From Cytospora piceicola (Eukaryota > Ascomycota > Sordariomycetes > Diaporthales > Cytosporaceae), in contig JALQBC010000005.1 in the NCBI GenBank assembly GCA_023375675.1, forward strand, positions 1,178,001 to 1,242,000: DNA of 64,000 nt, given 5' to 3'. Positions 16,851 to 63,513 of this stretch are shown here, piece by piece; the stretch's first letter is position 1, and every line of letters begins with the position of its first letter. The notes below the pieces were generated by a model that worked only from the letters and a program-made list of their open reading frames with translations, did no database searches and was not told the DNA's origin. A program made the translations under genes and the position numbers.

Positions 16851-17171
16851 CTACCTGTCTTCCAGATCATGGTATCGTTTATGCGCGGTGACCGCGAAAG
16901 AAGGCCAACAGTGCCCGCATCTGCTGCAGGCCTGGCTCCCATCCTGGCCATCCCATGGCTCTGGCTCATACTCAGCGTCTGAAGAACCAAGGTCAATCTC
17001 CATGTGGTCATCTGAAGGTGGGGACCCAACGCCATCGACCTCACTGTTTTTATCTCCTTACTAGTCTACTTCCACTGTCGCTCGTGGCGGCGCCTCGTCG
17101 CCGGTGTCGTAGACCCTAAACTCTCGCAAGACGTCATCTTGTCTCCTGAACATCTGCGAGATATCTCTCCC
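16851..17171 (-). pseudogene. POLI: DNA polymerase iota, 3' fragment (C-terminus with ubiquitin-binding-type zinc finger)
   Basis: This is the downstream half of the gene whose upstream half is at 61966-63513. Reading minus from 17171 gives GRDISQMFRRQDDVLREFR, the conserved segment that follows the little-finger domain in fungal polymerase iota. An acidic linker follows, then a C-terminal C2H2 finger CSRCGHCWPSF...AHKRYH (C-X2-C-X11-H-X3-H), of the UBZ kind used by Y-family polymerases to bind ubiquitinated PCNA. The stop is TAG at 16853-16851. Two consecutive in-frame stops, TAG TAA (17063-17058), sit in the linker and are what RIP would make from CAG CAA. The fragment has no promoter or start of its own, since it lies directly against the left end of the inserted element. 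Confidence 0.85.
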
Positions 17172-17173
17172 AC

Positions 17174-17574
17174 CTCGACAACGAGAGGCGGTAATTTCCG
17201 ATTTTAATAGGTCTTAACTCTTAAGACAGTGTTTCTAAAGCAGATTTTCGAGTTTAAAACCTGTTTCTAAAGTGCATTTTCAAATCTAAGGCCTGTTTTT
17301 AGAGTGTATTTCGAGTATAATATATATTTTTAGAGTATATTTAAAGCTAATATATATATCGTAAGTTTTACTTCGACCTTTAAGTTTAGCCTTAAAGTCT
17401 GATCGTAGCTATCTCTCTGTCTTTATATAGCTTTCGACCTTCGACCTTCGACCTTCGACTTTTAACCTTCGAGTCTTAATCGTCTAACTTCTATTACGCT
17501 TAATAAACTACTAATTATCTAACCGTAGCCGTGTAGGCGGTGTTTCTAGTGCCTCTTACAGTCGGTCCGCTATA
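17174..17574 (+). repeat. Left terminal inverted repeat
   Basis: It pairs with 61483-61965 in reverse complement. Shared landmarks from the outside in are AGGTCTTAACTC, GTGTTTCTA, CGAGTATAATATATATTTTTAGAGTATAT (17312-17340), the ATATATATCGTAAGTT block, repeated TTCGACC, TAATCGTCTA, and the inner GTAGCCGTGTA...GTTTCTAGT. Nearly all mismatches are transitions. The outermost ~27 bp resemble the other end only loosely and carry little RIP. Confidence 0.85.
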
Positions 17575-17740
17575 GTCGGCTTAAGCTACACCGAGTAGGA
17601 AAGGCGATATAGGAAGCTACGATACCTTTTATAGTCGGTCCGCTACGGAATATATAACTGCTTAAGTAGTAACTACTTAAATAATAGCTATAATGCCTTT
17701 ACGGTCGGTCCGTTACAGAATATATAACGTATATTAAAAA
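17540..17740 (-). repeat. Left subterminal repeats (3 copies)
   Basis: Three copies of a CTTTTAYAGTCGGTCCGCTAC-like motif lie at about 17555, 17629 and 17700. One copy of the longer companion unit (GGCTTAAGCTACACCGAGTA...GGCGATATAGG) lies between the first two. They are the reverse complement of the array at the right end. Confidence 0.85.
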
Positions 17741-17987
17741 GATAGCTACTAGATTACGATATAAGCGACGTAGGAATTATCGCTTAAAGGTTAGTTATAA
17801 AAGGCCCTCGGCGTAAAAAGGATAAAAGGGAAGGCTATTCGATTAAATATTAAAGGCGATAAAAGCGATAAATTATTATAATCGTTTATATAATATCTTA
17901 ACGTTTAAAATTTATATATCTTAATTTAAATATCCTTACTTTTATTTATTATAAAGTTATTATCGTTATTACCTTATTACTATTAGA

Positions 17988-20900
17988 GCTATTATTTACC
18001 TTCGGAACTATCGTTACTATCGTTACTATCGTTATTCTCTATACTGTTAATATCTATACCGTTACCTTTAGCGCTATTATTTTTAGAACTATTTTTACTC
18101 TTATCTATAATATCGTTTAACACTACTGCCTATACTAGTAGCGATATACTACTCGGCTAAAGGGCGGCTAGCCGTAATAATCGTCGATATATTATAGGAT
18201 CTTTTACCTCCGGGGACTAGCGTTTTAAAAACCTTTTTAAAAAGTAACTATCGTTAGAATTTTAGCGTTTTAAAGTCGACCTTAGATTCGAAACCGGCTG
18301 TTGTTTAGTAGTAATACCTTTAGTAGTAATACTTACTTTACTCTTTCCGGACGTTTTACCTTTTCCGGAAGCCTTACTTTAAGGTAATAGCTATAAAGTC
18401 TAACTATCGCTTCCGGTAGGCTTTTAACCTTTAAGGTATATACGTACTTTTATATAGGCGATCGAAACGTAGTTGTTAATCGACTTAAGTATATCGCGGT
18501 TTATATAATAGCCGTTTAATAACTAGTATTATAAAAGACTGCTTTTCTTTAAGAATAAATAAAGGTATTCGGAATATATATATTCCTTTAAATCGGTAAA
18601 AATGCCGTTATTATTTAAAAGGATATTTCGAAGCTTCTTAAAAAGGTTCTTAACCTTCCTTATAAGGTTTAACAGCTCGATCTTAGGTATTAGATAACAC
18701 TTTACGGTATACTTCTTCGACCGGTAAAAAATATTTATCTCGAAGTCGTAAAGCTAACAATAATACTTCCGTAATAACAGAATAAAAGTAAGATCTCGGA
18801 ATTCGTATTCTATAATACTAAAATATTAATTATAATTACTTAGTTTTTAAAAGCTATATTTATAAGCTTAATATATAAAAGTTTTTTCTTTCTATTTATC
18901 GCTTTAGCTCTTTTTCTATAAACCGCGATCCTATATAGTCTTATAGTTATTTTAAGAATCTTAAAGTACTTACGATAAAAAAGGCTTTTAAACAGCCTTT
19001 TACGTTTAGACGGCAGCCTTATTAATAATATTTATCTTACCTTTAAAACAGAAGTTAAAGTAAAAAACGACCTTTTTATAGGTTTCCGAGTCTTTATATT
19101 TTTACTAATTATACTTTCTATTAGTTTTAAAATAACAGATCGAGTATTAGAACGTCTTTAATAGCCTTTAGTTAAACTTACCGCGGTCGTTTATATATTA
19201 TTAGTAGAATTTAAAAGATTAATACTTATTAAAATTACTTTTTATACTTGTTTAATAAAAGCCGTATTTATAAATTATTGTCGGAGGCGATCGCTTTTCT
19301 AAAGGTATATATTGCTAGTAGTATCTTTCTAAGTTTATTTTATCTTTAAATCTCTCTTACTTCTTAGTATAGTCGATATAGTCGTAATAAAGGTATCCTT
19401 AAAAGAACTTGTAAGCTTAATCGAAAACCCTTTCTATATCGAAATAAGAGTTAATATCCCGATAAGCTTTTAAAGCTTTTTAGTTTAAGAATAACCTTTA
19501 GTAATTATTATACCTATACCTTTACTCGCTATAAAAGCGGTTAAAGTAGTATTATAGCTAGCCGGCGTTAAGGTTATCGGTATTATAATCGGAGTACCGG
19601 AAAGAGAGTAGTTAGTCTTAACTATTTATAAGTTAAGTATATAAAAGGTTTAGCAGGTTAAGGTTTATAAATAACGAATTAAGAGCTTTTATTTTAAAGT
19701 ATTCTTTAAGTAAAGCTTATCGTTCTGTACTAAGTTTAAGGTAGAGCTTTTAAAATAGTTTACTTATCGAGATCTATAACAGGTAAGTAAACTTAACTAG
19801 CTAAAATAAGGGATTCGAGGTACCTATAACCTTATTAGTAATATTACTATCTTAGGTAACGTTACGAAACTTATCTTAAAAGCTCTTTACCGGATCGAAT
19901 AAGTCTAGGTACTTAACAGGTTTTTTTATTAGTAACGGTAGGTTACTTTAGTACCTCGAGAATATTATTAAGTTCGGAGGTTTTTACGTAGTAGGTACGT
20001 AACGAAAAGAGCTGTTTTTAAATAGGACGATCGGGAAGCCTTAACGGTTTATAATCGACTATTAAACTTCGAGTATAAAGTCTAGTAAGTAACAGTCTTT
20101 ACTTAGCCGCCGGTTATTAACTTTTTAAATAGCTTAAGCGACTTATTATAAAACGTTATAAACAATTTAAAAAAGGAATCGCTTTTAATAAATACCTAGT
20201 TTAAGTTTATAAAGGTCGAAGTATACCGTAGCTTTATTGTATTTCGTATAGAAATCTAACGAAACTAGTATAGTATACAGAGTGTCGATTGTATAGCTAA
20301 AAGAACGTAGCTAGCTATAGTAAAAGATGTAAAAGGGATAAATCGTATTATTAAGAAGTATATAGGTTTTAAATTCCGATTCGCTAAGGCTGTAGCTTTT
20401 AAAAATAGCTAGGTAGCCTTATTAGATCCGGGACGCTTCTTAAACTAATACGTTATTAAGAGATTTAGTTTTTTTGAATTAGAACTTAAAAGGCAGATAT
20501 TTAGCCTTTATAAGCTTTTCCTTTATAAGTTATATTTTTTTCTTTATCGATACGGTTTTAAGTACTATTTTTAGGTTTTCGTTCGTTTACTTAACCTATT
20601 ATTTATACCGAGCTTAATATATCTCGACGACCTTTAGTAGACGTCGAGCTACTACTAAGTTTTTTATAGCTACGGTAAACTATTAGAGAACGGGAAGGCG
20701 TTAAGCTTAAAGAGTTTCGAAATCTTATAAGACTCTTTATTAAGATACGTCGATTATAAGGTCGAAAAGAAACTAATTCTAGCCTTTTACCTAGTTTAAA
20801 AAGCTTATTATAACTGCTATATTAGCCTTTATATAATAGTATAAGGCCCTTTAGCGACGAGTAAACGGTATAAAAGCCTTTAAGAATAATGTAAATAGTG

Positions 20901-22260
20901 AGACCGAGAAGAGGGTGTTTTAGCTAGTTAAGAAGTCGAGAGCTTATAGATTCGGGAAATTTACTAATATAATTTTAGTAGACAGAATTAAATAAAAGTT
21001 ATACCGGAAGCTGTTTATAATATTTTTAAAGCGTTCTTTATACTATTCTTAAGAAAGGCCGGGGATAAATGTTTTATCGGCTTAAAAATACTTTAAAAAG
21101 TCTTTAGACTTTAGTCTCGATATAAAAATATCCTTAAAACTAATAGGGAACACTTAGTTGTTAGCCTTTTAGTCGAAGTATGTTTTAGTAATAATTATAT
21201 AGTTATTTTAAACGTAAGGCTTAAACGCTCCTTCGGGCCTGTCTTTATTTTTAATATCGCTAAGCTTTTAAATAATCGCGGCCTTTTATAGCTCGACGAC
21301 CTTTTCGATACTTTCGCCTTAACTCGTGACCGCCGTCGGGTTACCTTCGTAGATAATTTTACGTTATATCTCGGTAATAAAAAGTCTATACTCCTACCTG
21401 CTTAGTTGCTAAGGTACGTCGACGATTATAGTAGGTAAGAACTGAATATCGATGCCGGCGGCTGTTAAGATAGGTACGAAGAGTTCTCGGGTAAAAGTAA
21501 TATATAGCTTTCGTAAGGCCGATATTATATCGAAGTATAAAAGCTTTTCTTTAAACTCGATAATTAAGGCTTAGTATAAGCCGACAGATAACAGGTTTAT
21601 AACCGCGGTATAAATAAAGGCCGACTTAATGTTTTTTATTTCTTAGCTTAACTAGTCGATAATATCTTCTTATACGCTTACTAGTAATAGAAGTACTTTA
21701 AAGAAAAAGCACTTTATACCGTATCCCTGTTAAATAAGCTATAATAACGTATTTATTTCGTCGTCTTTAAGCTAGGCCTATTAGTCTATTAACTTAAAGG
21801 CTTTGTTAAGGAAACGTATTTAGTTTAACTATATAGATACCTTAAATCTATCCTTCGTCCTTTACTAAGACTGTAGAGGGCTGTCGGCTAGCTTATCGTC
21901 TTCCCGGATATAAAAAGACTGCTTAACGGCGATAGTAACAGCGGAGGTAATAGCGGAGGTAACGGCTTAGTTATAGGTTTATATCGATAACTCGTTAGGC
22001 ATTATATAAGGTTAGTTAGCTGTCTTATCCTCTTTTTAAGGGTTCGGCTTTAGTAAATATAGTTAATATTAAATAATCGAGATAAAGACTAAAAAGCTTA
22101 CTATCGATAATTTACTAAGTATTATATAAGATTAGTTAGCTATTTCGTCTTTTTCTTAAAAGATCGGCTTCAAAGCCGACTTCTTAAAGTTAAAAGATAG
22201 TTTAACCTAGATATTATTAGTAGCGATAAAGAAGAAAAGGTTTTATATTACTTATACGCT
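17988..22260 (-). pseudogene. Degraded ~1,420-codon reading frame, unknown protein
   Basis: One minus-strand frame (codon phase fixed over 4.2 kb; checked at 22000, 18808 and 18001) holds protein-like sequence interrupted only by TAG and TAA. Candidate start ATG is at 22002-22000 (MPNELS), but the frame also extends upstream through a duplicated ~110-bp segment (22000-22080 and 22110-22190). Visible segments include ISALRKLYITFTRELFVP, a positively charged middle, KASGKGKTSGKSK, and a Ser/Asn/Asp-rich tail ending NDSNDSNDSSEGK just before clustered stops at about 17988. The tail end lies ~0.4 kb from the left inverted repeat, so the gene reads outward. I do not recognise the family. RIP has changed many residues, so the visible peptide is not the original. 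Confidence 0.6.
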
Positions 22261-22508
22261 TACTTATAATAGCCGGAGGTTTAATATCGGATTAAGGTTG
22301 CTTATATAATAAAAATTAGTTTAATAAGAATTAGTCTAATAAAATCTAAATATTTTTAAGATTTTTTAAATAAGGTTTACGTAAAAATATTAGTTTATAG
22401 ATAAGATAAGAAGACTAGGATTCTGTTATTATTATATCTATTTAATAGTAAAGGACAAGGTAAAGTTAAGAAACTAAAAGAGCGTTTATAAAATAGTATT
22501 AGCTATTT

Positions 22509-22712
22509 TATATTATTAAGTAAACCGGAATATACTTTTTAGTTAGTGCTTTAGAAATATAGAAATAAAGATACTTAATAAAGGTGCTTAATAAAGGTGC
22601 CTAATAATTTTATATTACTAAGCAGACCGGAATATACTTCTTAGTCGGGGCTTTAGAAATATAGAAATAAAGATATTTAAGAGAAGTGCTTAATTAAAGT
22701 ACCTAATAATTT
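22509..22712. repeat. Tandem duplication, 102-bp period
   Basis: The unit beginning TATATTATTAAGTAAACCGG recurs as TATATTACTAAGCAGACCGG 102 bp later. The two share GGAATATACTT and CTTTAGAAATATAGAAATAAAGATA. It lies between the two divergent degraded frames, so it may sit in their shared promoter region. Confidence 0.8.
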
Positions 22713-22879
22713 ATTATTAAAGCTTCTATATAAAGAGATTTAAATTTAGCTGTTAAGGTTTCTTATATCGAGTTTTTACTATTTTTAAAGTTACTTTATT
22801 ATACCTTCGAGAGGTATAATATATACCTTCGAAAGATATAACTATATATATCGAGAAACACAACTATATACTTCGAAAG

Positions 22880-24640
22880 ACATGATTATATACCTCGAGA
22901 AACGTAACTATAGACTCGGAAAACCGAGAAAAGCTGTCGCTATTAAGAAATATCCTTATATAAGAAACGGCTAAAAAGATATCCTTATCGACTTAAAACA
23001 TCTTCAGCCGCTTTACCGATTAGTAAAGGATTTTAAATAAGTTAAACCGTAGCCGTCTTATAGTCTTCCTTATAATATAAGAGTTTAAACTATTATAAGA
23101 TAACCTATTAGTAAACTAGCTAATACGTTTTATAAATATAATAATCGAAGATCTTTACTTCTGTATAAAAGAGGTTAAATACTAGACGAAGAAAGGTATT
23201 ATCATAGCTTATATTATATTCGAGCTTTAAAAATAAGACCGGCCCGACATAATATAGCGTATATAGCCTTTATCTAGGTTAAAAAGCTTATTCGATATAA
23301 CGGTTCCGGAGCTTTATTAGTAAATCGTCGACTAGCGTATCTCTTTAAGCGAAGGCTAGAAAGTGTAATAATATAAACTTTTTATTACTTATCTACTAAT
23401 TACTAACGCTTTAGCTAACGATTTACAATATAACGCTAAAGCGTACTATATACTACTACCCGAAGTCTTTAATATAGTCGCGATAAACTATTAAGGCTTA
23501 TATATTTATATAGAACGTAAGAAGATACGGTCGGCTTTAAGTAAGTTATTTCGGGAGAATTTAGTTAGATTAATTATACAAGATATAAAGGTAAAGTGTT
23601 TAACTCTTTCGAGAACTATAAATAAATATATTTAAGCTTATATACCTATAATACCTTCGAGAAGCGGCCGACTACTAACAGATATCCCTATAGTTATCTT
23701 ATTAAAGCGTAAGCTTTTATAGCTTAAAAACTATTCGAAGAAGGTAGTTAGATATATAATCGACGAAGAAAAGAACTAGTTATAAGGACGAAGTAACGTA
23801 CTTATAGTTTTTCTATTAAACAGAAAACGCCTTTCTTCGAATAAGGTAAGAATATACGCTATTATCGACTTTTATATAAACTAGTTATAAAGCGATATCT
23901 TTACGGCTATCCTTTTAAAGCGGAAGTTATTTTATAGTATAGGCTCTTCGGATAAAGACGTATATACTATCTTCGATTCGGATAAAAACCGACTATAATA
24001 AGTCGCCTTAACGGCTATTCCGCTTAAATAGACGTTTCTTTAAGAGAGTATTACTATATAATTATAATAAAAGCTAGATAAGTAGCTAAGTAGTATAAGT
24101 ATACCCTTTATAATTATCGTCCCGATCGGCTTAAATAAAAAGCTAAAACTAAACGTTTCTATTAAGCAGCTAGAAATAGGTATACTTACTAAAAGCCTTA
24201 TCCTTATCGGCTTAAATAAAAAGTTTTTAAACAGTACTATAAAAGCCGTCTCTCGTATAAAGAAGCGTACGCTTCTCGTATATTAAAAGACTAATATCGA
24301 GCCGCCGTAGCCGAAAAAAAAGCCGAAAGAAAGTATTTTCTTTTAAACGCCGACTTAACTTTAAAAAAAGCTCGATAAAAGGGGCATTTTATATTTAATC
24401 GACAGGAAAAAAAGTAAAAAAAAGGTAAGGTTAGTATTACAGCTTTTCTTAAACGATAAGAGCGTCTTTCTCGGTATAGTAATATATAATAAGGTCTTAT
24501 CTATCTTAAAGAATAACCTCGGATAAAGGTATTAAGATATAGTAGCGTAGGCGTAACGTAAGTATTAAGTCTCGTACGCTAGTCTTCCCTATAATAATAG
24601 AAAGCCTCTTATTAAGCTTACTGTTTAAAGGATTATCTAA
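22880..24640 (+). pseudogene. Degraded ~580-codon reading frame, unknown, Lys-rich linker
   Basis: A plus-strand frame from about 22880 to 24640 is protein-like with only RIP-type stops. It reads for example IIIEDLYFCIKEVKY (about 23140), TNALANDLQYNAKAYYILLP (about 23400) and LVRLIIQDIKVKCLTLSRTI (about 23575). A Pro/Lys-rich stretch EPPQPKKKPKES (about 24300, taking TAG as Gln) precedes the C-terminal part. It is divergent from the large minus-strand frame to its left. The start is uncertain; an ATG occurs at about 22883. No family was recognised. Confidence 0.5.
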
Positions 24641-24965
24641 AAGATAAAGGGATTAATATAAAGATAGAGCCGATAGAATAGCAACTAGGATAAGTAAAGG
24701 GTTAAAAGCGATTTTTTAAGACTAGTATTTATTTTACTTTTATTTAGTAAACTAAGAAGGATAGAAAGGAATACGTTAATTATTAAAGAAAAGTAAGTAT
24801 TAAAATAAGAATAATTATCTACCTTTATTTTAACGTTTACTAGTATATAATATAAAGATTCCGGTTAATCGTTTTATCGCGATATATATATAGGGATTTC
24901 CGGTAGTATTCTAATAAACTAAAAATAAAAAGGTATAACGAAAAAGAAATATAGCTCTTCCCCCG

Positions 24966-25040
24966 AGGCTATATTAAGTTAAAAACGAGATTTCTTAAGT
25001 CTTTTCGACTTAATTAAATTAATTTAACCTAGTTTTAAGA
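24966..25040 (+). repeat. Internal inverted repeat, left arm
   Basis: About 75 bp (AGGCTATATTAAGTTAAAAA...) matches the reverse complement of 50445-50518 with mostly transition differences. The arms lie 25.5 kb apart inside the element. Confidence 0.7.
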
Positions 25041-25269
25041 AATTAAAGCTAAAGCTTAAAGAATAGGTATAGTTAGGTTAAAAGCGACTATTTAGCCGTA
25101 GCTAGTAAACTGTCTTATATATACCGCTGTCTTTAAGCGCTAAATTAGGTATAAAGCTATCGCTACCGCGTCGTAGAGTATTTTAATATCTTATTCGCTA
25201 TATTAAATATTATCGTAATCGGCTAAAAAGGCTTACGGTTAGAAAACATCGTAAAGAACGTCGCGGTTA

Positions 25270-25700
25270 AAGAATAGCGGTCGGTAAAAGAAAGAAAATA
25301 TCGCAGTCGAAGGTATTATAATTAAAAGGCTTATAGTTAGAGAGCATTACAGAAGGGCGTTACTAAAGGCGTCGTAGGAAGGCGACACAGCTAGAGGTAA
25401 TATAGCCGGAAGTAATACAGTTAAAGGTAACGCGGTTAAAGGTAATATAGTCGAAAGTATCGTAGTCGAGGAATAGCAGTCGGTAAAGAAAAGAAGATAT
25501 CGCAGTCGAAGGTACTATAGTTAAAGGTAATACGGTCGAAGGTATTATAGTTAAAAGCATCGTAGTTAAAGATATTGTAATCGAAAGATAGTAGTCGGTA
25601 AAAGAAGATATCGTAGTCGAAGGTACTATAGTTAAAGGTTAAAAATAATCAGAAAGGTATTATAGTAAAGGGTATAGCGGTCGGAGGTTAAAGGTATAGC
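25270..25700. repeat. Minisatellite of GTCGAAGGTATTATAGTTAAA-like units
   Basis: About 20 imperfect units of ~14-16 bp alternate AGTCGAAGGTA and AGTTAAAGGTA with variable joints, and a longer unit containing CGGTAAAG(A)AAAGAAGATATCGCAGTCG recurs three times. The 65-codon open frame at 25363-25560 is a read-through of this array. Confidence 0.75.
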
Positions 25701-25929
25701 GGTCGGTAAAGCAGAAGGTCGCGCAATAGTTATAGTTTATCTTAAGTTATAGCTAAAGTAGATTAGCTAAACTATTTCGTAGTAAAAAGTAAAAGGTATA
25801 GTAAATACTAGAAGGTAAGGTAATAAGAATATCCTTAGTTTAGTCTAATAACCTTATAATTATTTAAAGCTTTTTAGATATAGCTTTATCGCCCGATATA
25901 ATTATATAATTACCTTTTAAATATAATAA

Positions 25930-26690
25930 TATTAAGCTCCCGGTTACTTTTTTAATCGTTACCTAACCTCGAACTAGTATATTTTAATATACTAACTACG
26001 TTCCTTATAGTATTTCGGACCTTTTATAACCTAGTTTTTACTTTCGAAACCGCTTTATTAGTAACTTCTGTATCCCGCTCTGCTTAAGAGCTTTATAACT
26101 CGGCGTCTGCTAAGCCCTTTAAAATAGAATTAATAACCTTTATTAGATAACGTTCTTGTTCTGTTACTTCGATATTATATACTTCGATATATTCTTTATT
26201 CCGCTCGAGGATATAAGTCCTTTTATTTAGCTGTTTATCTTTAGCCTCGATACTATATTCCCTTTCGGAAAGCTAACCTTTATAATTAGTAATATTATAC
26301 TTTTTTTCGACGATATAAGATTCGAGATTTTAAAGGCGCTGCTTTCTGTTCGCGAGATAAGAAGTAAGGTTGTCGAGGCGCTACGCCTTAATATTAGACG
26401 ATGTAGTAGTATTTTTTATAAAGCTAGAAAACTTAAGGTAGCTATTTTAAATAATCTGAATAAATTAGATAAGAATATTAAAAGTATTATCTAGGTTTCG
26501 GTATAAATAATCGCGAAGAGCTTAAGCCTTACTCGCTATACTATTAACGTTTTATCGGCTCGAGGCTAATATTTAAGCTAGTCGGATTTGCTTAGCTTAA
26601 GGTTTTACGTAAAGGCTTTAACAGAGTAATAGTATTATTTTCTTTAATAAAGTATTAATACGAGATAAATGCTCGATAAATTAATATTAG
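25930..26690 (-). pseudogene. Degraded frame, probable coiled-coil protein
   Basis: A minus-strand frame of about 250 codons with only TAG/TAA breaks reads as a charged helical protein: NLESYIVEKKYNITN, REYSIEAKDKQLNKRTYIL, ERNKEYIEVYNIEVTEQERY. Heptad-like spacing of Leu/Ile with abundant Glu and Lys suggests a coiled coil. Start and end are not clear. Function unknown. Confidence 0.45.
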
Positions 26691-27122
26691 GTAACTTATA
26701 TAATTATAAAGGTAAGGCGGTTTTAGTAGAATTAGATGTAGTAGATGTTTATAAAGTTAGACTATAAACGTAATAGTAATAATAAGTAAATAATTAGATC
26801 GTTTTATTTTAACTTTAAATAGTAAACTACTTTTATTCGGACTCTGTACAGACCGATTATAAGAAGTTACGTTAAGCTAATTTAATTTTAAAAGGTTAAG
26901 AAGGGCTTATATTATTTAAATCTATTAGCCTTATATATATAGTCTTTTACCTGTAATATATAATAATTTTATCTTTTTTATTCGGTCTGTATATAAACTG
27001 ATTATAAGAGGTACTTAGGTATCTCTTAGTGTATATAGTAGGGTAAGTAGGGTATAAGGTACGAGGTAGGGTAATTAGATAACAGGCCGCCTACTTTATA
27101 ATGCTTTTAACTTACGAATAAA

Positions 27123-27917
27123 CGTTAGTTCTGTTTTAAAATAGTATTATTTAATAGCTTTAAACGAAGAGAATTAAATGATTTATTTTAAGATATACGA
27201 AATATCTGTTTTTATAAGGAGCGTAGTAATAACTTAATAATAAACCTAAGCTTTCCGGAAAGCAGTAAATCTAATAGCTTTACCTAATACCTTCGAATAT
27301 AGTAAGTACGCCGGTTCACTATTAGGTTATATATATAATAAAAGAGTTTAAAAATAAAGCTTATTATTATTAAGGTAATATAGCTACTGCTATAAGGCTT
27401 TTTACTATCGTAGTATAGATATTAATCTCCCGGTCTTTAGTAGCTATATCGTTATAATATTTTTAAGTAGTAAGTTAAACCGGTTTTATACCTATAACTA
27501 ACCTATATTACTATTACGCTTTTATAACGATATTCTCTTATATTAAGGGTATAGATAAACTGCCTCTTTATACTAAAGCGTTAAATACTCGGGGTATCGT
27601 ATAAAGCGCTAATAAGGTAGTTGTTATATTTATCGTTAAGGTATTTACGTTTACTCTTTTATAATAGGAAAAGGGCGACGTTTTTACTTTAAACTATAAC
27701 TAAAACGTCCTATACTATTATTACTAACGTTTATATTAGCTTTAGCTTTAGTAGGAGTATAAGCTTTATTTTCCTTAGCCTTTAAGAAAGTAAAAGCCTT
27801 ATCCGATATAGTATTTATTAGTTTAAAACCTTAGTTTTTACTAACGTCTATACTTTAAAAGCTAGAATTACCTTTTTAAAAAGCGATAATTAGCTAAAAG
27901 TTAAAAAGCTAATATTC
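27123..27917 (-). pseudogene. Degraded frame, unknown basic protein
   Basis: A minus-strand frame of about 265 codons has RIP-type stops only. Visible stretches are KAFTFLKAKENKAYTPTKAK, GRFSYSL and SEPAYLLYSKVLGKAIRFTA. Both ends are open. No family recognised; the frame choice is supported mainly by the absence of frameshift and of non-RIP stop types. Confidence 0.35.
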
Positions 27918-52149: not shown

Positions 52150-52440
52150 GGCGGTATATCGTGTAATACCTGTTATTTCGAAATAAAAGGATAGAGAGAC
52201 GGCTTATCGATAGGTAGTACTTAATGTCTCGTAGTAGACGTTATACTTAGGGGGTATAAGGGCGATATACTATATAGCGTTTATTATTTTAAAATAAAAA
52301 GACGGAAAGGCGGTCTGCCGACGGGCGGTATTTGCTATCTCGGTATAAAAGAATAGAAAGAAGGCTTATCGGTAGGTAGTATCTGTTATTTCGAAGTAAA
52401 GGAATAAAAGGACGGCCTGTTAACAGGCGTATTAAACTTT
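52150..52440. repeat. Degenerate tandem repeat, about 4 units
   Basis: Units of about 65-70 bp carry CTGTTATTTCGAARTAAARG, then GAYRGARAGRCGGCYTRTCG and a GGTAGTA segment. GC-richer than surroundings. Confidence 0.7.
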
Positions 52441-52989
52441 AAAAGACGCGGCGAAAGGTTAGTATTAAGAGGGTAGTATAGTATAGCTAGCGACGACGAC
52501 GATATAAACGTTCGAACCGGAGTAGCTAGTAGTTTTATATAACTATTACTACCGGTCGGTTAATTAAGTAGATTTATTATAAGTCGGTATTAGAAAACTT
52601 TCGAGATATATTAGCTAGTATATTCGAGGTTTTTTATATATTTATCGATAGTTGCTAGTTAATAGAAAGGCCGGTAAGGTAAAACCGTGTTATATTTATT
52701 TTAAAGGTATATAAACTTAATTATTTACCTACTTAAGTAAATACTTAAGCCTTTTATACGTAAATTTACTTTAACCTTAACCTTTACCTTAACCTTGACC
52801 TTAACCTTTTCCTTTATTTTTACTTTTATTTTTATTTCTACTTTTACTTTTAAGCTTCGACTAACCTTATATTTTCTTAATTAGTTAGCCGTATATATAC
52901 GATAACCTATAAATAAGCCTTAATCTCTTTATTATAGTTATTTAACCGTTTTCGAACCTATCCGGTTTTTATACTTTTCGATAACCTTT

Positions 52990-55900
52990 AAATCTAAGCT
53001 AGCGCGTTTTTATATCTTAAGTATAATACGCTTTTAACCTGCTTTACCTTAACAGCTTCTGTATTATTATTAACTACCTTCCGGCTAAGTATAAGCCTTT
53101 ACCTCTTTTTTTATCTGCTAAGTATATATCGCGGTTGTAAGATTTTCTATAAACCGTAAATACTTGTTTAAGCTATTAATACTTCGTAGTAGGAATATAT
53201 TATAGTTTATTATTTAGATAAATACCTTTAACGAATTACCGACCTTTATATCTACTTAGTTTATAATAAAGTTATACGACGGTTTTATCGTATTAATAAG
53301 CGAGGTATTTTTATCGTTTATCGCTTCTTTTTCTAATATCGTAAAACGCTTATATATAGTAAGTTTAGACTTAAGTTAGCCGCCTATAAAGAAATAGCGA
53401 AAGTAAAATATATAGTTTAATTTCGACTAAATTACCTTTATATACGTTATCGGTTAAAAGATATCGATTACGGTTTTAAATATCCTTATTAAGCCCGGCT
53501 TAACCGGCGGCGAACTACGTTACGTTTATTACTACTAATATAATAAACTCCGTAGGTAGCTTTAAAAGACCGCCGATATCTTTTAAGATACGGCTGTAAA
53601 TATCGTCTTACTTAAACCGAAAGATAGTAACGACTACTATATCTATTATATTCGCGACAGGTAGTTTTTCGCTAGCTTATTAAAGATAATTAGGAATAGC
53701 TTCGTTATAGTACCCTTTAATAACGGCGTCGGCTACTTTCTCGAGATATAGCCTTACCTTAATAAGCTATTAGGCTTGCCGCTATATATTATAATCTCTA
53801 TCGAGAACGTTACTATAGAGAAGGCTAAAGATAAAGTCGAACCTAACTTTAGCTATATACCGCGTCGGCTTAAAAACGGCTTTTTCTTTACTACCCTTTT
53901 GCCGTTTTATAATATAAGCGTTATTTAGGATAATATTTTTAGCACTTTTATAATATCCTTATTCTCCGACTATAGCTACGATTTTAAACTCTAATACTGT
54001 CGTAATTAGCTAACGGCTGTAATATTATATATTACGCTTCCGATTGTAAACGTTACTATAAAAAAGACCGAGGCTAATAAATCCGAAGTTAGCTATTTAT
54101 AGCGCTTACTCGAATACAGTTCTTTCTTTAGTACTTTATAGCCGCCTATAGATATAGGCGCTGTTTAAGGCGAATCTATTGTAGTAAGATAAGAAAACGG
54201 TATCTTTATTATTACTTTTAATACTAGTTACTAGCTAAATATTACCGACAGCCTTATTAATAGTAACCTAAATCCGGATATTACTATTATTAAAAGCGAT
54301 GAAATTGTTATTATTAGAGAAGAAAAGTATACCTTCGATATTATTAACTAGCCCGATACTACCGCCGGCCTTCCTTATAGCACCTTATATCCGCCTATTT
54401 CTATAAGCGCTATTAAAAACGATACTACTATAATAGGAGAAAATAAAGGTACTTTTAATATTCCTTATTAGCCGGACGGCTCCGCCGGCTCTATAATTAG
54501 TACCTTATATACTTTTATTAACCTAACCGCTAATAAGAACGATACTAATAAGTAGCTAAACGCCGATACCGGCCTTAATAAATTTACTTTAAGGTTAATC
54601 GCTTAAGCGTACCGATTCTTTTAAGTAGCCGAACGCTTTAATAATAAGTATACTATCGAAGGTATCGCGTAACCTATCTATATATACTAGCTATATATAA
54701 CGTACGGTCTTTTATTATCGCTTATTAAAACCGAGATTAATAGCGCTTTAATAAGCTAAAGCGTCGGGTTCGGAAAGACTATACTAGTACTTTTATACCT
54801 TTACGTCCGGGCTAAACTTACCGACCTTTAAAACTATATTTAAAAAGAGTAAAGGGACTATAAGGCGACTGGCCGGTAGTACCTCCCTTTATAAAGTTAA
54901 GTATATAGTACTTAATGTTTATTTTAATATAAGTATATAGTTAAATACTTATATATTATATTCTCCGACTTTTACGTTATCTGTTTAACCTACCTTATAA
55001 ACTCGCCTATATTAATCGTTATCCCTCCCGGCTTATTATATAACTAGCTAGGTGAAAAGTATAGTATATACGCGGACGAATAAGGTATAGAAAAAACTAT
55101 TAAGTTTATAGATTTTTATTTATACGTTTTAAGGTTAAAGGACGATATAAGTATAACTATAAGGCCGGAACGTTTAAAAACAGTTATCGATAATATATTC
55201 GGTAAGGTTATTAAAGTTAATATAAGTAAAGAAGATAAGGATAAAGAAATAAGGTTATTTATTAAAAGCGGTAAGAGTAAGGCTATAGACGTTTTTTTAG
55301 TAAGCTCGAAGTCGGTTATCCGGCTATAGAGTAGATACTTTAAAGCAGAAAGTACTAAGACTATATACTTTACTATAAGTATAGTTATTATAGATAAGCA
55401 CTATTAGTATAAAGGCGTTATAAAAAGTTCTGAAACGATTTTATTTATAGCTTTACGTTAGATTAGCGACGCGGTATACTATCTTATTATACTTTTTACG
55501 TTTTATAGAACTACTTTCGAGGAGGGCTTATCCGCGTAATAAGCCCCGATCGAACACTTCGATAAATAGTAGGCTAAGTTCGAGTTAATACGAAAGCTAT
55601 AATACTAACTCGATAATAATAGGTTCTTTATAACGATAGCTAAGTTTTTAAAAGCTCGACGGCTATACCTCTTTTTTATACGTTTTATCGCCGACCGGTA
55701 AAAGACGTTTATAAAAATTAAGCCGTATACCTGCTTAATTATTAACTTCTTTAAGCTTTTAATATAAAGCCTTTAGCTTAACTAGCTTTACCGCGGTAAG
55801 ATAATTAACGCTTTCCCGCCGTATTAAGAAGACTATAAGTAACTCGACTTTATTATAGAAAATAATATAACTACCGCGTTTAAGTTTATATTAATAGATA

Positions 55901-56760
55901 TTTATACCCTTATTTAGACTAAGCTTAAGCTAAAGCAGGCTAAGTAAGCTACTAATAATAAGGTAAAGCTTAAGCTTACGATAGTATTTTTAATCGCAGA
56001 ACTAGTAAGTAGTAAGTAGAAGACTTAAAACGTATCTTTTTATAGCTTATAATACGCTTCGATATACCTGTATATAACGGTTTTATTAGGTTTTATAGGT
56101 AGTAAGCTGTTCGAGGTAGGAACTTATTAGGACGTCGTTTATAAGTATTAAAAATCGATATTCGAAGGAAAGCCTTTTAGCCTTACTTAAAAGAAGTTAA
56201 CTAAATAGAACTTCTTTCCCTACTTAAATACGTTCGAAAGAAACTTAGCTAAGTTTTAATATATAAAGAAGCTAATCTGTTAAATAATCGTAGATTAAGA
56301 TAAAGCGACTGTGTTACTAAATAGGTTAGGTAAACGTTATATTATTATTTTTTATAGCTAGCTTGTAAACGCTATTTTAACCTACGTCCTTTTATTATAC
56401 GACTACGAGTTCCGGAATATTAAGCTGCTACTTTTATACTTTAAAAGTAATAATAAAAACCGGGCTAAGATCGTGAAAAAGATAAATACAGTATATACTA
56501 TAAACAGTTTTAATAAAGTCTTTATTACCGTTATATCTATCGTTATAAAAGGGTTTAATATTTAGTATACGAATAATATTTAGTTTATAAAACTCTTATT
56601 TACCTTATCGAAGAAAGTATAAGCGGTAAGAAGGGTATATAGGTAAAGGCAGAAGATAAAGGTAAACCTTGTTAAGCTTACAGAAAAGGGTAATCTAATA
56701 AAAGAGTTTAGCTACGAGACTATAAAAGCGAAAGAAATAATCGCCTAAATCGTTTATAGC
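52990..56760 (+). pseudogene. SNF2-family helicase, RIP-degraded, carried by the giant element
   Basis: A plus-strand frame (position 1 modulo 3) runs about 1,250 codons with no frameshift; all stops are TAG/TAA. ATPase motif I reads GFGKT at 54766-54780. Motif Ia appears as LIVIPPGLLYN near 55010-55045. Motif II reads DKHY at 55393-55404, where DEHH or DEAH would be expected before RIP (GAG to AAG). The second helicase lobe contains KGFNIQYTNN and motif VI VRRVYR followed by Gln-type positions at 56626-56652, matching the VGRVxRxGQ form of SNF2 helicases after Gly to Arg changes. The N-terminal ~550 residues are a separate region containing imperfect internal repeats. SNF2 ATPases remodel nucleosomes or other protein-DNA complexes. 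Whether this one served mobility of the element or was cargo is unknown. Confidence 0.75.
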
Positions 56761-59170
56761 TTTTAGCCTATAACGTAATCTCTATTTAAAGGATATATCT
56801 CGGCAGTGTCGCTATTAGGGTAAAAAATATCGTTTTTTCTGTTTCCGGTAGGTCTTTTATATATATTAGTTTAGCTAAATAAAAGGCGGGAGGATACTTA
56901 GCTTAGTTATAGCTTTAGAAATATATATATAGATAAAAAACGGGATAGCTTATTAATATACTTAGTCTTTTTATAACTATAAAAGGTTAAACTTTAATTA
57001 TTAATCTAACCGTATACCGGGTTATTATTTGCTTAGTAATAAGCTTAAAGGAGAATATCTAATTATAGACCCCTTCCGTTATTATATCTAATATAAAATA
57101 ACGAATTAACTTAAACCTATAGTAATATTACTTATATGTTTATAATTAAGTTCGTTATAGACCGACTACGGTAGGTAGTTAATAAGTCCGAGATGTTCGA
57201 AAGCAGATATAGATATAAATACGGTATAACTACTTAAGTTAAACTAAGAGCTTCGATTATAATAGCTTTTATATTTATTATACGGTTTATCTTATATTTA
57301 GGTTTAGTATAACCGAGTCGTCTTATTAGTATAGGCGATATTAAGTACCTCGAGCTTATAATACTTTTACGTTTAGATATAGAGATAATACTAAAAGGCA
57401 GAAGCGGAAGCCGAGAAAGCTTTAACAGCAGATAGTTAATAAGTATAGTAAGAAACCTCGTCGGCTACCTCGGCTTAAAAAAAACAGACAGAAAGTAGAT
57501 AAAAACAGATAGAACTATAGGAGTAGTAGATTAATACGTAGTTTTATTAAAGTAGAAATATTACCTAGTATTTAGAATAATTAATAAATATTACCGGTTA
57601 GTAAACCGGTTACTAGAAGTTAGTAACTATTTTACTATTTAATTATATTAGGCGATATAGCTTTAAGGGGTAGCTAACTTTACCTTACGTTATAGCTATA
57701 TAGTATATTAAAATATATAACCTTTTTATCTATATTTAGGTAAAGAGGCTGTTTTTAACTACCTCCGGGTACCTTTATAAAATATTGTTTATTTATTAAT
57801 TATAGTAGCTAATAGTCGTGTTTATTAAGTTTAATTCGTAGTCTTCTATTTAAGGTAGTAATGTTTCTACCTTTACTTATACCTTTAGTTATAGGTTATA
57901 GTTTATAGTAAGTATAGGGAAGAAGTATATCGATAGCCTAATTCGAAGCAGTTAGTATATTACTATATATTACTTTTAATTATAATGCTTAAATACCTAA
58001 AGATATATAATTAAACACTATATTATTCTACTTAGGCTAAGTAGTTTATTAAAACGTTTTAAAACTAATATCTAGCCGTATGTAGTAGGGCCTCCCGAGG
58101 TAGAATAAGCGGTATACTAAGTTCTATACTTTTTTACCGGCTTATAGTTTTTAAGCCTTTATTTTCCGAGCCTTTATCTTTTAAGCTTTTACCTTTTATA
58201 TATCCGGTATAGCCTTCCGAGTAGGCGGCGGTATTCGATATAGGCGTGTTGTTATAAGAAATAGTAGTAGTATCCTTTAGTTTTTAAAAGGGTATATTAA
58301 ACTCGTTTATAATATTAGTTACGATTAGTATCTTTTTTTTACTAGCCGCGAAGGGCTGTTTCCGAGGATATTTACTATCCGTTATACTAGAATTACTAAA
58401 ATCGATATTATCTCGGGAACGTATCGTATACTGCTATATAACCGCGGTACTATAAAGCTTATTATATACTATATCGTAGTACTAGCTAGTTAGTATATAA
58501 TATTATACTTATTATAGTAGTAAAAGATATACTAGTACTATAGTTAGTAACTCTTTTACCTACTCGGCGTTATAATATAAAAGTAGGTTTATTTAGTAGT
58601 ATATATAGTTATAAAGTCGATTAAACTAAGTATCCGATATAGGGTAAGGCTAGTTAAGATACCTCGAGCTATACTACTACGTTATAATATAAGTAATATC
58701 GAGAACCCGGTCGGAATTTATTGTAATAAAGAGTAAGATTAGATTTAATAAAGGAAAGGTTTAACTTAAGCACCTTTAAACGCCTGCGACTTTAGTATAT
58801 TAAAAGGAGTAATAATATAACAGAGCGAATTCTAGAACTAGTAGTATAAAGAACGTTCGGATATATACAGCGACCTAATAGTTATACCGGCTTATTATAT
58901 ACGTCTTAAGTATCGTTCTGTTTAAGATTATTTAAATAATAACTAAATATAATATATAGGTAAACGGAAACAGACCTTAAAGTTTATTAAAGAGAAATTA
59001 ACAGGTAGGTTTTAAAAAACTTTTAGGCTATATTAGGCTAATAAGTTTGCTTAGTTTTATTTTTATAATAACTTCGTATTATTATATTAATACTATACTG
59101 ATTCTATTTCGTTTACTGCGGAATATACTATATTATATACTTAATACTATACGGTTCGTTATAACGACCT
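56761..59170. other. RIP-degraded interior, nothing assigned
   Basis: 2.4 kb after the helicase frame. The first bases may be its 3' end. No motif recognised on either strand. Confidence 0.4.
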
Positions 59171-60290
59171 TAATTTTAACCTAACTCCCTTTCGAGTTAA
59201 TTTATAAGGTTATAGGGATAATAGATTTAGTTAACTATATTTACCTCCTCTTTACTAATAAGACCTTCTAGTCGGCTTACGAAAAGGATTCCGACTAGAA
59301 AAACTATTTTAGTACCGAGCGTTCTTTTAGTTAAGGCTAAAAGTTCGATAAGGTCTTATATACTTAATAGCGCTAACCGGGATAGGCCGGGGTTAAACAG
59401 CTTATCGTTAAACTTAAGCGTAATATACCTGATATATACTACGTTTGCTTAAACTACTACCGTCTTTACTTTAAACGACGTGTTAAGTTATTACTTTATA
59501 ACGCCCGCTATAATACGATATAAAGCTTTATCTTTTATTTCTTCGTAGGCTTTTATAGTTACGTTAGCTCTTTTAACTAAAAGATTTAATCGCTATCGTT
59601 ATACGGTTTTAAACGTACGATTTATATAGCTTAGAAGATAGACTTTTATATCGCTTTCGGAAGATTTAATATAATCGTTTATTACTACGTTAGCCGGGTT
59701 TTTTTCCTTTTCTCGGTCGTCCGGTTTTTTAATACCTCGGTAGACCTTATCGTCTTCGCTTTAAGCTCTTTCTTATTTATTATCTGTAGCTACTTTACTT
59801 TTAAGTATATAAATACTACCGACGTACTTTAAACAGACTTTTTTATAATAGTTTATACCGATAATAATAACTACCTTAGCTACTTAGATATATCTAAAAG
59901 ATAGATACTACTGTTTAATTCTTAAAATTCCTACTCGGTTTTAACCGGTTATATAGTATATAGCCGGTACTACGACTATAGCGCTTATAGTATAACTTAT
60001 AAGTTTACTGCCTACTTTTACGGTAAGGTCGGCGTAGAGATTATTTTAAATACTTTTAATAGCTTTATATTAATTTTATATTAAGAGAAGTATTAGAAAC
60101 TAAATAGCTTTAAGCCGGATAGCTTAAATTTATAGCCTTATAATCCCTGCTATAACTATCGTTTAAAAAAGTAGATCTTTACCGCGGACTTTATTACCTT
60201 TAGCTAAAGTGCCCGATCCGATATAACCTTTAAGAATACAGTACGGAAGCTATATAAGGCTACGTAAGCTATAATACTAAAGTAGCTTAT
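59171..60290 (+). pseudogene. Degraded ~370-codon frame next to the right subterminal array, unknown
   Basis: A plus-strand frame interrupted only by TAG/TAA. It is rich in Tyr, Phe and Ser: NIPDIYYVCLNYYRLYFKRR, RFNIIVYYYVSRVFFLFS, AYSITYKFTAYFYGKVGVEI, PYNPCYNYR. The Tyr and Phe excess partly reflects RIP (His, Ser and Leu codons changed). It ends about 0.25 kb before the subterminal repeats and reads outward, mirroring the large frame at the left end. No family recognised. Confidence 0.45.
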
Positions 60291-60320
60291 ATATATACTT
60301 ATAGGTATTACGTTAGTAAG

Positions 60321-60422
60321 GTGTCTTTTTAAATAATAATTTTTCAGTAGGTATTTATCGTATATAACGGGGTATCTTTTTAAATAATGATTTTTTAGTA
60401 GGTGTTTATTGTATATAGCGGC
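60321..60422. repeat. Tandem duplication, 2 x 51 bp
   Basis: GTGTCTTTTTAAATAATAAT at 60321 recurs as GTATCTTTTTAAATAATGAT at 60372, both followed by TTTTYAGTAGGTRTTTATYG. Confidence 0.88.
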
Positions 60423-60526
60423 GTATAATATCTTTTCGTATAAATCGAGACGAACTAAATAGATTTAGCTTTATACTATAAAGTACTTGTTAAAGTAACT
60501 AACTAACCTTATAATATTTATATATC

Positions 60527-61515
60527 TACAGCAGACCGACTATAAAAGGCCTTATAGTTATTATAAATCTTTTAAGGCAGACCGACTATAAAAGGTATCG
60601 TAGTTATACGTTATATATTCTGTAGCGGACCGACTATAAGAGGTATTATAGCTATACGTTATATTTTCCGTATTCTGTAGCAGACCGACTGTAAAAGGTA
60701 TTGTAGCTATTATAAATCTTTCGAAGCGGACCGGCTGTAAAAGGTATTATAGCCTAGTATCGCCTTTTTTACCCGGCGTAGCTTAAGCCGACTGTAAAAG
60801 GTATTATAGCTATACGTTACGTGTTTTATAGCGGACCGATTATAAAAGGTATTATAGCTATATATTATATATTCCGGGGCGGACCGACTATAAAAGGTAT
60901 TATAGCTATACGTTATATATTCCGGGGCGGACCGACTGTAAAAGGTATTATAGCCTGGTATCGCCTTTTTTACTCGGCGTAGCTTAAGCCGACTGTAAAA
61001 GGTAATATAGCTATACATTATATATTTTATTATAAACCGACTGTAAACGGTATCGTAGCTATTATAGATCTTCCGGGGCGGACCGACTATTAAGAACATT
61101 ATAGCTATACGTTATATATTCTGTAGCAGACCGACTATAAAAGGTATCGTAGCTTAGTATCGCCTTTCTTACTCGGCGTAACTTAAGCCGACTATAAGAG
61201 GTATTATAGCTATACGTTATATATTTTATAGCAGACCGACTATAAAAGGTATCGTAGCTATTATAAATCTTCCGGGGCAGACCGACTGTAAGAGGTATCG
61301 TAGCTATACGTTATATATTCTGTAACAGAGCGGACTAACTATAAAGATATCGTAACTATCGTAGATTTTCTGTAGCAGACCGACCGTAAAAGGTATTATA
61401 GTTTTTTATATCGCCTTTTTTACTTAGTGTAGCTTAAGCCGACCGTAGCGGACCGGCTATAAAAGGTATTATATATAGATCTTCTAGGGCAGACCGACCG
61501 TAAGATATACTAGAA
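60527..61515 (+). repeat. Right subterminal repeat array (about 20 copies)
   Basis: About 20 copies of GCRGACCGACTRTAAAAGG, usually continued by TATYRTAGCTATACGTTATAT, are spaced 45-60 bp apart. Roughly every fourth unit is joined to a companion segment TAGTATCGCCTTTTTTACTC then GGCGTAGCTTAAGCCGACT. The same motifs lie inverted at the left end. The 129-codon open frame at 60710-61099 is only a read-through of this array. Such arrays in DNA transposons usually bind the transposase; here that is inference. Confidence 0.9.
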
Positions 61516-61965
61516 ACATTATTTATACGGCTACAGTTAGTTAAATAAAGGACTATTAGCTAAGGACTTAAAGGTATAATAAAAGCTGTAGCGGAAGCCG
61601 TAGCGGAAGCTAGACGATTAAACTCGAAAGCTAGGGGTCGAATTCGAAGGCGATATAAAGATAGAAAGATAGCTACGATTAGACTTAAAGGTCGAAGGTC
61701 GAAGGCGATATAGAAACAGAGATAGCTATAATTAGATTCGAAGGCTAACCTTAAGTTATAGTTTCGAAGGCTCGAATATAAACTTTAGAGATAAAGTCTT
61801 AACTTACGATATATATATTATACCCGGGATATACTCTAAAAATATATATTATACTCGAAAATACACTTTAAAAACATATATTAGACTCGAGATACACTCT
61901 AGAAACAGTGTCTTAGGAGTTAAGACCTGCCGAAAATAGAGAAAATTTACTTTCGCTTGACAGAG
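61483..61965 (-). repeat. Right terminal inverted repeat
   Basis: The reverse complement of the left terminal repeat. It is about 80 bp longer because of an internal duplication (CGAAGGCGATATAGAAA...AGATAGCTA units at 61648-61730) and a GTAGCGGAAGC doublet at about 61588-61611. The outer end keeps GGCAGGTCTTAACTCCTAAG (reverse strand, 61931-61912) with CpA and TpG positions less mutated than on the left. Confidence 0.85.
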
Positions 61966-63513
61966 ACTTCCCGTAGCGTCCTCGGTTACCGTGAGTGTTA
62001 TGTTTGCCACGCATATATTGATCATGCCTATGTTCTATCCTTTACTTCGGCCTGGGTTCAGCTTGTAGAACATAGGTAGGAGAGCCTCGGTCACCAGTCT
62101 CCTAACTATCGAGGCGTCGTCGATATTGTGGAAAACGAAGGTCGGGAGCGGTTAGCTGCGGCTCCCTCTTGCCCAGTTGTAAGGCTTGCCTTCACTCAGC
62201 GATATCTTAGGACGGGTGGAAAGTCGAAGGGTTTTGGGTCGAGCGAGCCATCTTCTCCCTTTTGATCCATCGACTGAGGGCTCAGCGCTATCCACGGTAT
62301 CTTCGCTCTCAGTGAGGTCAACGTGTATTCGACGCAGTAGAGACGCCGCGAGCTTCAGTAGTTCCCTTTCGATTTCAGCCAGCGTGTTGAGACCACCATG
62401 TGGCCCGGGGTAGGTGTCCTCGATGGATATTTGCGTCGGCAGGCTGCTCGCCACCTTCACTTCAGTGTCGTCCACACCGTGTAGCAGACCCCAGATTTTG
62501 TCGCCAATGCCTCTCTCGGAGCCGGGGCGGTTGCCGAGAAGCTTCTCCAGCATTTGAGGAGAGACTTCTGGGCGAGTCCTGAATTCACCTACCGTCACCT
62601 TGGACTCCGTGGTGGCATCAGCGTCTGCGTCCCCTCCTAGGAAATAGCTCTCTAACGCGTGCGTGATCTTGCCTCCTATGCCAGGCACTTTACGGAGGCT
62701 ATGTGAATCCATGAAGGCAATGGCCTCTTCTTCATGTAAGGACAGTAAAGTTGTCTGGTTTCTGGGCTTATTGACGGTGCCTACGAGCTTGCTGAGAACC
62801 TTGCAGGTTGATATGCCACAAGCCGACGTATAGCCCTGTTCTTCGATTTTGAGGCGGAGGTATCGGGCAAAATGAGAGGCGAGGAGCAGCCGTACGTATA
62901 GCAAGTTGTCATGACTGTCCTCGCCATGCCCATCCCCGGTGACACAGCCGGCAACGGAAGTCGCATCGAAACTGAAGCCCTTTTCAGGGTCATCCCGGGA
63001 GAGGCAGAAGAACGATTCCGGCAGTCCATTGCGGTTGAGAAGTGCGACATTGTAGTCCACAACGTCAGTCACGTCCAGGAACACCTCATCCAGGCCCAGC
63101 CGCTCAACCTTAGAGTTCCAGGAGTACGCCGCCAGCAGGCCGTACAGCTTCTTGGAGACGTCCCGAAAGGCCGACAGGTCCTCGCCGTCGGCGAGCACGA
63201 GGTCCGGGCACGCCTTCCTGGCCTCGGAGATGAGCTGCAGCTTCCTGACGCCGCGCCTGCGGGCCTCGTAATTGCACGTGGCCAGGATGCTCTTCTGCTT
63301 GATGCCTAGCGGGAGCGACTTGAGGGCCGGCTGGGCGTTCTCGACGACCTGGGCGTAGAAGCAGTCGTAATCCTTCCCCCGGGGTTGATTTTATTATTAG
63401 CCTGCCGTTGGTACCCCACGTCGGCTGCGTCGGGAAGTGGAGCTCACGAAATGCAAGATGATCCTGTGCTGCTTCCTGCGAGGCGCACCTTTCTTCTTCA
63501 CCGGGAACGCCAT
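61966..63513 (-). pseudogene. POLI: DNA polymerase iota, 5' fragment (catalytic core), split by the giant element
   Basis: Exon 1 is 63513-63448 (MAFPVKKKGAPRRKQHRIIL-HF), intron 63447-63373 (75 bp, GTGAGC...GCTAAT...GGAAG), exon 2 from 63372. The join gives HF-DYDCFYAQVVENAQPALK, the Y-family N-terminus with catalytic Asp23. The second catalytic pair is D117-E118 in RLGLDEVFLDVTD. A helix-hairpin-helix block RKVPGIGGKI follows, then the little-finger region (PTQISIEDTYPG). The first in-frame stop is TAA (62154-62152) after 428 aa. The frame continues beyond it as PLPTFVF...RRLVTEALLPMFYKLNPG, breaks at TAG (62037-62035, an expected Trp), and ends at GS (61966), exactly where GRDISQMF resumes at 17171. 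The two parts together would be about 597 aa, the usual fungal size. A truncated polymerase without its C-terminal interaction region might still be made; function is doubtful. Confidence 0.9.

Follow-up and report, generated by a model that had tools for sequence, protein, structure and literature searches.

Two parts of what appears to be a single gene, that for DNA polymerase iota (pol iota), lie about 45 kb apart in the genome of Cytospora piceicola, raising the question of how they came to be separated and what the DNA between them is. The stretch analyzed here, henceforth the window, comprises 64,000 nucleotides of contig JALQBC010000005.1 (assembly GCA_023375675.1, positions 1,178,001 to 1,242,000), and was studied together with the 43.6 Mb assembly of 99 contigs to which it belongs. 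We conclude with considerable confidence that the intervening DNA is a giant element of about 45 kb with inverted ends, possibly of a new family, which inserted into the pol iota gene and was killed by repeat-induced point mutation (RIP). The features on which this reading rests are collected in Table 1.

A preliminary description of the window had proposed that two minus-strand frames, one ending at 61966 (..EDATGS) and the other starting at 17171 (GRDISQMF..), represent neighboring stretches of pol iota. Searching the two gene pieces separately against five full-length orthologues from Cytospora, Diaporthe and Cryphonectria bore this out exactly in all five. In C. schulzeri P0002 and C. chrysosperma P0004 the right piece (63390-61966) spans residues 24-496 and the left piece (17171-16851) begins at 497; in C. 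mali P0005 and Diaporthe amygdali P0006 the corresponding figures are 22-493 and 494, and in Cryphonectria parasitica P0034 they are 23-496 and 497. The expectation (E) values of the left piece run from 2e-55 to 5e-19. As judged from these alignments, the adjacency is far beyond chance. The left fragment aligned to the pol iota orthologues just as the right piece does, and at the protein level these orthologues are single and uninterrupted, with both fragments joined. That the right half has the catalytic core is likewise upheld by its IMS domain (Pfam E 3e-32) and by its best structural matches, which are solved pol iota structures (PDB, E 1e-39); it is 85% identical to its counterpart in C. 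schulzeri and 82% in both C. chrysosperma and C. mali, the nearest named relatives. A search of the assembly with P0002 recovered no second pol iota; besides the two split places it returned two partial matches, both weak (32% and 28%). The expectation that annotation would report separate fragments can be made more specific for the right half, of which a 348-residue piece (P0001, from a 6.7-kb contig) is listed as a database protein of its own. The locus shows an IMS domain closest to pol iota and a C-terminal extension that is contiguous with the core in relatives, as expected of fungal POLI, and its reading frame is interrupted by the 44.8-kb insert and by four premature stops.

Two of these in-frame stops lie in the right half, at 62154-62152 (TAA) and 62037-62035 (TAG), and two in the left half, at 17063-17061 (TAG) and 17060-17058 (TAA). 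At the former pair all five orthologues, aligned by eye, have Gln and Trp; at the latter pair, where the Diaporthe and Cryphonectria proteins could not be aligned by eye, Gln-Gln is found in each of the three from Cytospora. Each stop is a single C-to-T or G-to-A change away from such a codon, in CpA/TpG context, and hence of the type made by RIP. All four are situated no more than about 190 bp from the junctions, and a 412-codon frame farther out is intact, a distribution consistent with RIP having leaked up to that distance from the insert into both halves of the gene. The first stop appears to precede the end of the presumed little-finger domain, so that no working enzyme is expected. Pol iota is therefore broken as well as split, and is a pseudogene. 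The preliminary reading of a split gene stands, and to it are added the RIP-type stops near both junctions and the large RIP-mutated family described below, both of which it had missed.

The 44.8-kb element that had been suggested to divide the gene proves to be a true element, as its ends recur elsewhere in the genome. The two ends of the insert are inverted with respect to each other (17209-17448 matches 61928-61688 at 72%, and 17571-17658 matches 61196-61111 at 90%), and such terminal inverted repeats recurring at many loci are characteristic of class II elements; no long pair of direct repeats resembling long terminal repeats (LTRs) was seen within it. Scanning typed end motifs in the window and 34 loci located the left end at 14 places and right ends, which are of two kinds, at 16, the window being counted. 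These form nine pairs, each taken as one element, which span 44.8, 45.7 and 61.6 kb with the right end of the window type and 35.3, 40.0, 41.6, 53.9, 60.2 and 102.2 kb with that of the second type; the longer spans probably contain nested DNA.

At pol iota an A is present at both 17172 and 61966, so that the insert can be written as 17172-61965 or 17173-61966, and one of these two bases is extra as judged from the orthologous proteins. The base outside the element is the same at the left and right end in eight of the nine pairs. At ends of the window type (3 left, 5 right) this base is invariably A; of the remaining ends, all 11 left ones have TG before them, and 9 of the 11 right ones, which are of the second type, have G after them. 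The shared base could have arisen by duplication of one base, or it could belong to the end of the element itself. The flanking frames offer a further view of it: to the left of the element at the place designated C16 is an open frame of 418 codons, which continues only if a single base is counted (17 codons vs an immediate stop), and C47b points more weakly in the same direction (293 codons, then 22 vs 0), with the remaining pairs not discriminating. Inspection of the flanks of the end pairs by eye did not, as a rule, reveal any duplication exceeding one base. The left sides of the end pairs L003/L042 (C16), L014/L029 (C1) and L016/L025 (C47b) adjoin open frames of 418, 409 and 293 codons, and these elements may also interrupt genes.

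Much of the element has long collinear counterparts elsewhere, with an overall identity of 81-87%. In the window, 20.0-29.9 kb is collinear over its full length with C16 and C8 (84%), most of 30-39.9 kb with C14 (84-87%), most of 39.9-49.9 kb with C90 (84-86%), and 50-59.9 kb with C22 (84-85%); at C16 a stretch of 45.7 kb is bounded by the same ends as the element in the window. A 500-residue piece of the conserved gene nearest the left end (gene 1; plus-strand reading P0121) was found at 48 places in the genome, the window included, and the other 47 are 36-72% identical and contain internal stops in every case. These counts are lower bounds. As a rough estimate from the 48 places and the nine elements measured at 35-102 kb, the family might occupy perhaps 2 Mb of the 43.6 Mb. 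Among the matches listed from open-licence PMC papers (titles and abstract openings), there was no description of it. The copy at C8 (L040, G000:C8:93001-95600) is without a recognizable left end, its homology starting from window position 17780 onward.

The composition of the element points to RIP, whose mutation context is CpA according to PMC12543289. CpA and TpG are reduced to 0.12 and 0.19 of expectation in the element, as against 1.20 and 1.08 in its flanks. Comparison with sister copies revealed 13-15% transitions and 0.36-0.42% transversions (L034 over 24.0-31.4 kb; L032 and L036 over 25.3-31.4 kb), with single values of 0.48% and 0.80% transversions for shorter stretches there of L033 and L035; given this imbalance, nearly identical copies seem to have been independently mutated. 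Transversions relative to the same sister copies rise to 1-2% over about 18.5-25.6 kb, roughly two to five times the level over 25.3-31.4 kb, so that the elements look mosaic, as if they had been exchanging segments. Outside the element, the window contains a RIP-mutated Copia-type element at 1005-7361, with 158-bp direct repeats (1005-1162 and 7204-7361, 93%) and sub-cut-off matches to the retroviral SH3 and Pol_BBD models.

Several blocks of the element show signs of having been coding. Ten copies of gene 1 align across more than 1,000 columns, and it probably lies on the minus strand, reading outwards: when the minus frame is compared with the most divergent copy the third codon position is the most variable and residue similarity is 2.2 vs 1.7 for the plus frame, it is the best-scoring frame in all four windows of 18520-19820, and the internal indels of that stretch are of 3 or 6. 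Against this strand assignment, the plus frame has equal or fewer stops in 9 of 10 copies, and in just one of the four windows of 18520-19820 are stops rarest in the minus frame. A plus-strand reading of the gene (alignment A1) was abandoned when comparison of codon positions with the most divergent copy favored the minus strand; searches made with A1 are weak because it was read on the wrong strand, and a five-copy scan of the gene was likewise on the plus strand. As a weak query of this kind, A1 retrieved nothing from the protein database, where the best 7,994 candidates by shared words were scored. With profiles of the minus-strand reading and of block 2, no solved structure was recovered at E values of 10 or below. 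The indels of block 2 are multiples of three in its core and not at its edges, and a frame test agrees that this core is coding; for 41.2-44.7 and 46.8-47.9 kb, frame tests settled no frame.

Block 4 is a probable SNF2-type helicase, as judged from its sequence. Its indels in four compared copies are multiples of three, except for one 29-base gap near the end of L048, and the plus frame has the best frame score. With a five-copy profile, over its C-terminal part only, 14 PDB chains were matched at E values no higher than 1, the best being 0.0014; ten of these chains are named as SNF2-type remodellers (FUN30, Fft3, SWI/SNF-related, CHD1L, INO80) and four as helicase-like protein, which we take to be Mot1. 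In the copy L049, the Pfam model Helicase_C is matched at E 1.3e-5 (25.8 bits vs a cut-off of 23.5). The C-terminal helicase domain of an SNF2-type protein was detected in this block and the N-terminal ATPase domain was not. L049 (G000:C1:1380560-1382870) is also far less RIP-mutated than nine other pieces of the family, with 42 CpA+TpG per kb vs 5-21.

Six-frame read-through Pfam scans extended over 17.7-62 kb, with 53.4-57.0 kb scanned in four frames and with about 100 bases at 53.3 kb and 17172-17700 left outside. In these scans no transposase, captain, PolB, integrase, capsid or packaging ATPase model was matched, and no retrotransposon domain was reported inside the element. The matches to MIT (0.07) and IL17R (0.025) are weak and were taken as chance, as were six of the seven families matched in a read-through scan of 38 pieces. 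As a control, the RIP-hit Copia-type DNA at 1001-7000 yielded two retrotransposon domains at E 4e-5 and 0.001, both below the Pfam cut-off, and no recognizable reverse transcriptase or integrase. Since this control was recognized only below the cut-off, the sensitivity of the scans is modest, and the absence of transposase and captain models is weak evidence. In genome searches, the DUF3435 model found one RIP-hit trace, at C51 (best E 1.5e-7, with 11 stops in its two pieces), and matched none of the 48 family places; those with the KDZ model PF18758 and with PF03175, both run without a positive control, were empty. The DUF3435 trace (G000:C51:181911-182709) lies inside a 102-kb stretch between two ends of the element family (118815-221013), and is perhaps a nested Starship.

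Among known systems, the Starships of Pezizomycotina come closest in being multi-gene elements of tens of kilobases with inverted ends in an ascomycete host, and it might be supposed that the element is a Starship whose captain gene has been mutated beyond recognition. In keeping with this, RIP alters His, Cys, Met, Gln and Trp codons and thereby hides domains, and a mutated DUF3435 trace does exist elsewhere in the genome. However, the model that found this trace despite its 11 stops found none of the family places, and no DUF3435 captain came to light at the 5' end in the scans of the window, whose reach RIP restricts and which did not extend to 17172-17700. Moreover, the conserved gene beside the left end probably reads outwards, and the family differs from Starships in its many related copies, all RIP-mutated, and in its subterminal repeat arrays. 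In a survey of Starships (PMC12153272), terminal inverted repeats are given for 18 of 20 and direct repeats of 2-12 bp for 19 of 20; the former fit the element, whereas it has a single shared base in place of the latter. We accordingly regard a Starship as unlikely. Polintons/Mavericks have long inverted ends and several genes, among them PolB, integrase and capsid, and duplicate 5-6 bp of target, and SNF2-type helicases also occur in large DNA viruses. An endogenized large DNA virus or Polinton-like element would hence account for the several conserved genes, the long inverted ends with repeat arrays and the probable helicase. Polintons are also comparable in size, being up to 40 kb according to PMC10175614. 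However, the scans detected none of PolB, capsid, integrase or packaging ATPase, the PF03175 search was empty as noted, a duplication of 5-6 bp was not seen, and A1 had no relative in IMG/VR, a weak test given its wrong strand. No double-stranded DNA virus of fungi is known, as stated in the abstract of PMC10640383, and we consider an origin of this kind decidedly improbable.

KDZ/Zisupton and other large transposons with terminal inverted repeats have subterminal repeats at their inverted ends, a large protein and 8-bp duplications; the element shares the first two, and differs in lacking a KDZ match (in the search without a positive control) and in that 8-bp duplications were not seen. AT-rich islands of RIP in fungi are often nested transposons, and the element resembles the RIP-inactivated transposon islands of filamentous ascomycetes in being AT-rich, depleted of CpA/TpG and filled with stops; a RIP-hit Copia-type element is present in the same window. 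Nevertheless, a nest of ordinary transposons accumulated inside pol iota is very hard to reconcile with outer ends that are mutually inverted and recur as ends elsewhere, with long collinear matches at other loci, including the 45.7 kb between the same ends at C16, or with the want of LTR-like repeats and retrotransposon domains in its interior; it appears to be a single 45-kb element and not an aggregate of small transposons. The AT-rich elements described in PMC9910759 are different ones. AT-rich repetitive DNA does assemble badly, and the assembly was judged without reads; however, both junctions coincide exactly with family-wide element ends and separate, again exactly, neighboring codons of a single gene whose halves are correctly oriented, and RIP-type stops adjoin both, making an assembly error scarcely credible.

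Several observations nonetheless weigh against a RIP-killed giant element as set out above. No transposase or recombinase could be named within it by the read-through scans, whose sensitivity RIP has lowered. The one-base rule is broken by C24, and no empty site was seen at the DNA level, the uninterrupted state being known from orthologous proteins. The present-day context is CpA/TpG for only 36-51% of the transitions, possibly on account of neighboring mutations that changed it. As regards the helicase, Helicase_C rises above its cut-off in one of the 38 read-through pieces (L049), the window copy of block 4 taken alone matched nothing, and the SNF2 N-terminal model PF00176 was found at 40 places in the genome and at none in block 4, an absence that may reflect RIP damage. 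L049 itself found nothing among the best 7,997 candidates by shared words in the protein database.

Taking these points into account, we propose that a giant DNA element some 45 kb in length, bounded by long and imperfect inverted repeats, entered the last part of pol iota, leaving one extra base, its transposition presumably being effected by an enzyme of its own. The insertion would have severed the catalytic part from the final 106 codons, among them those of the finger, a separation that is directly observed. The element is likely to have carried its own genes, including the probable SNF2-type helicase and the large conserved protein near the left end, the latter being the first candidate for the protein that cuts and joins DNA. 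It would have multiplied in the genome, with RIP, triggered by its copy number, then mutating the copies; we infer this from the CpA/TpG depletion, the transition-rich divergence and the stops in every copy seen. More tentatively, it is conceivable, though on balance we doubt it, that the family belongs to a hitherto undescribed superfamily of giant multi-gene elements of ascomycetes, typified by inverted ends of several hundred bases, subterminal arrays, a single shared base, an outward-reading gene of over 1,000 codons that takes the place of a captain, a core gene for an SNF2-type helicase and dozens of copies hidden by RIP. The presence of POLI is described as hit-or-miss in fungi and other groups in PMC8595933, and the present case shows one route by which pol iota is lost in a fungus. 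It also suggests that part of an ascomycete genome can be filled by giant elements that are not recognizable as Starships; because RIP erases their genes, such elements would escape domain-based pipelines, captain-first searches among them.

Table 1. Features of the pol iota locus and of the element inserted in it (window coordinates)
Feature	Position	Strand	Basis
Left half of pol iota, from GRDISQMF.. through the C-terminal C2H2-type finger to the native stop	16851..17171	-	106 codons and stop; orthologue start
Inserted giant element, about 44.79 kb, GC about 30%, RIP-mutated	17172..61965		composition; family-wide ends
Left terminal inverted repeat, begins CCTCGACAACGAGAGG	17173..17560	+	inverted match; inner limit approximate; end recurs at other loci
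Left subterminal repeats	17552..17733	+	inverted matches to 60605-61466
Conserved gene 1, probably >1,000 codons, reads towards left end, no known family found	18520..22200	-	codon-position pattern; frame score; ten-copy alignment
Conserved coding block 2, no known family found	31221..33278	-	multiples-of-3 indels in core; frame test
Segment common to other loci at 76-82%	36319..37030		sequence matches
Segments common to other loci at 65-79%, interrupted pattern	41200..44710		matches; no frame settled
Segment common to other loci at 68-70%	46810..47900		matches; no frame settled
Segment common to other loci at 64-67%	51250..52010		sequence matches
Conserved coding block 4, probable SNF2-type helicase	54481..56820	+	coding tests; PDB profile search; Helicase_C in L049
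Right subterminal repeat array, 48-bp unit, 16.6 copies at 60577-61401	60518..61505	-	repeat searches
Right terminal inverted repeat, outer end CTCTGTCAAGCGAAAG	61560..61965	-	inverted match; other loci; inner limit approximate
Pol iota exon 2, right half, catalytic core to ..EDATGS	61966..63372	-	IMS; PDB; orthologue ends; 5' border our own reading
Pol iota exon 1 (MAFPVKKK..RIILHF)	63448..63513	-	matches N-terminus of P0002; exon borders our own reading

Two minor features of the window may be added. Within the element there are short hexamer arrays of the CCTTAA/TTAACC types at 37681-37787 and 52765-52814, which have a telomere-like look and are matched there by related loci. Beyond the 3' end of pol iota, a row of plus-strand frames occupies 12403-15426, one of which contains a protein kinase domain (13140-14810, E 8e-19).

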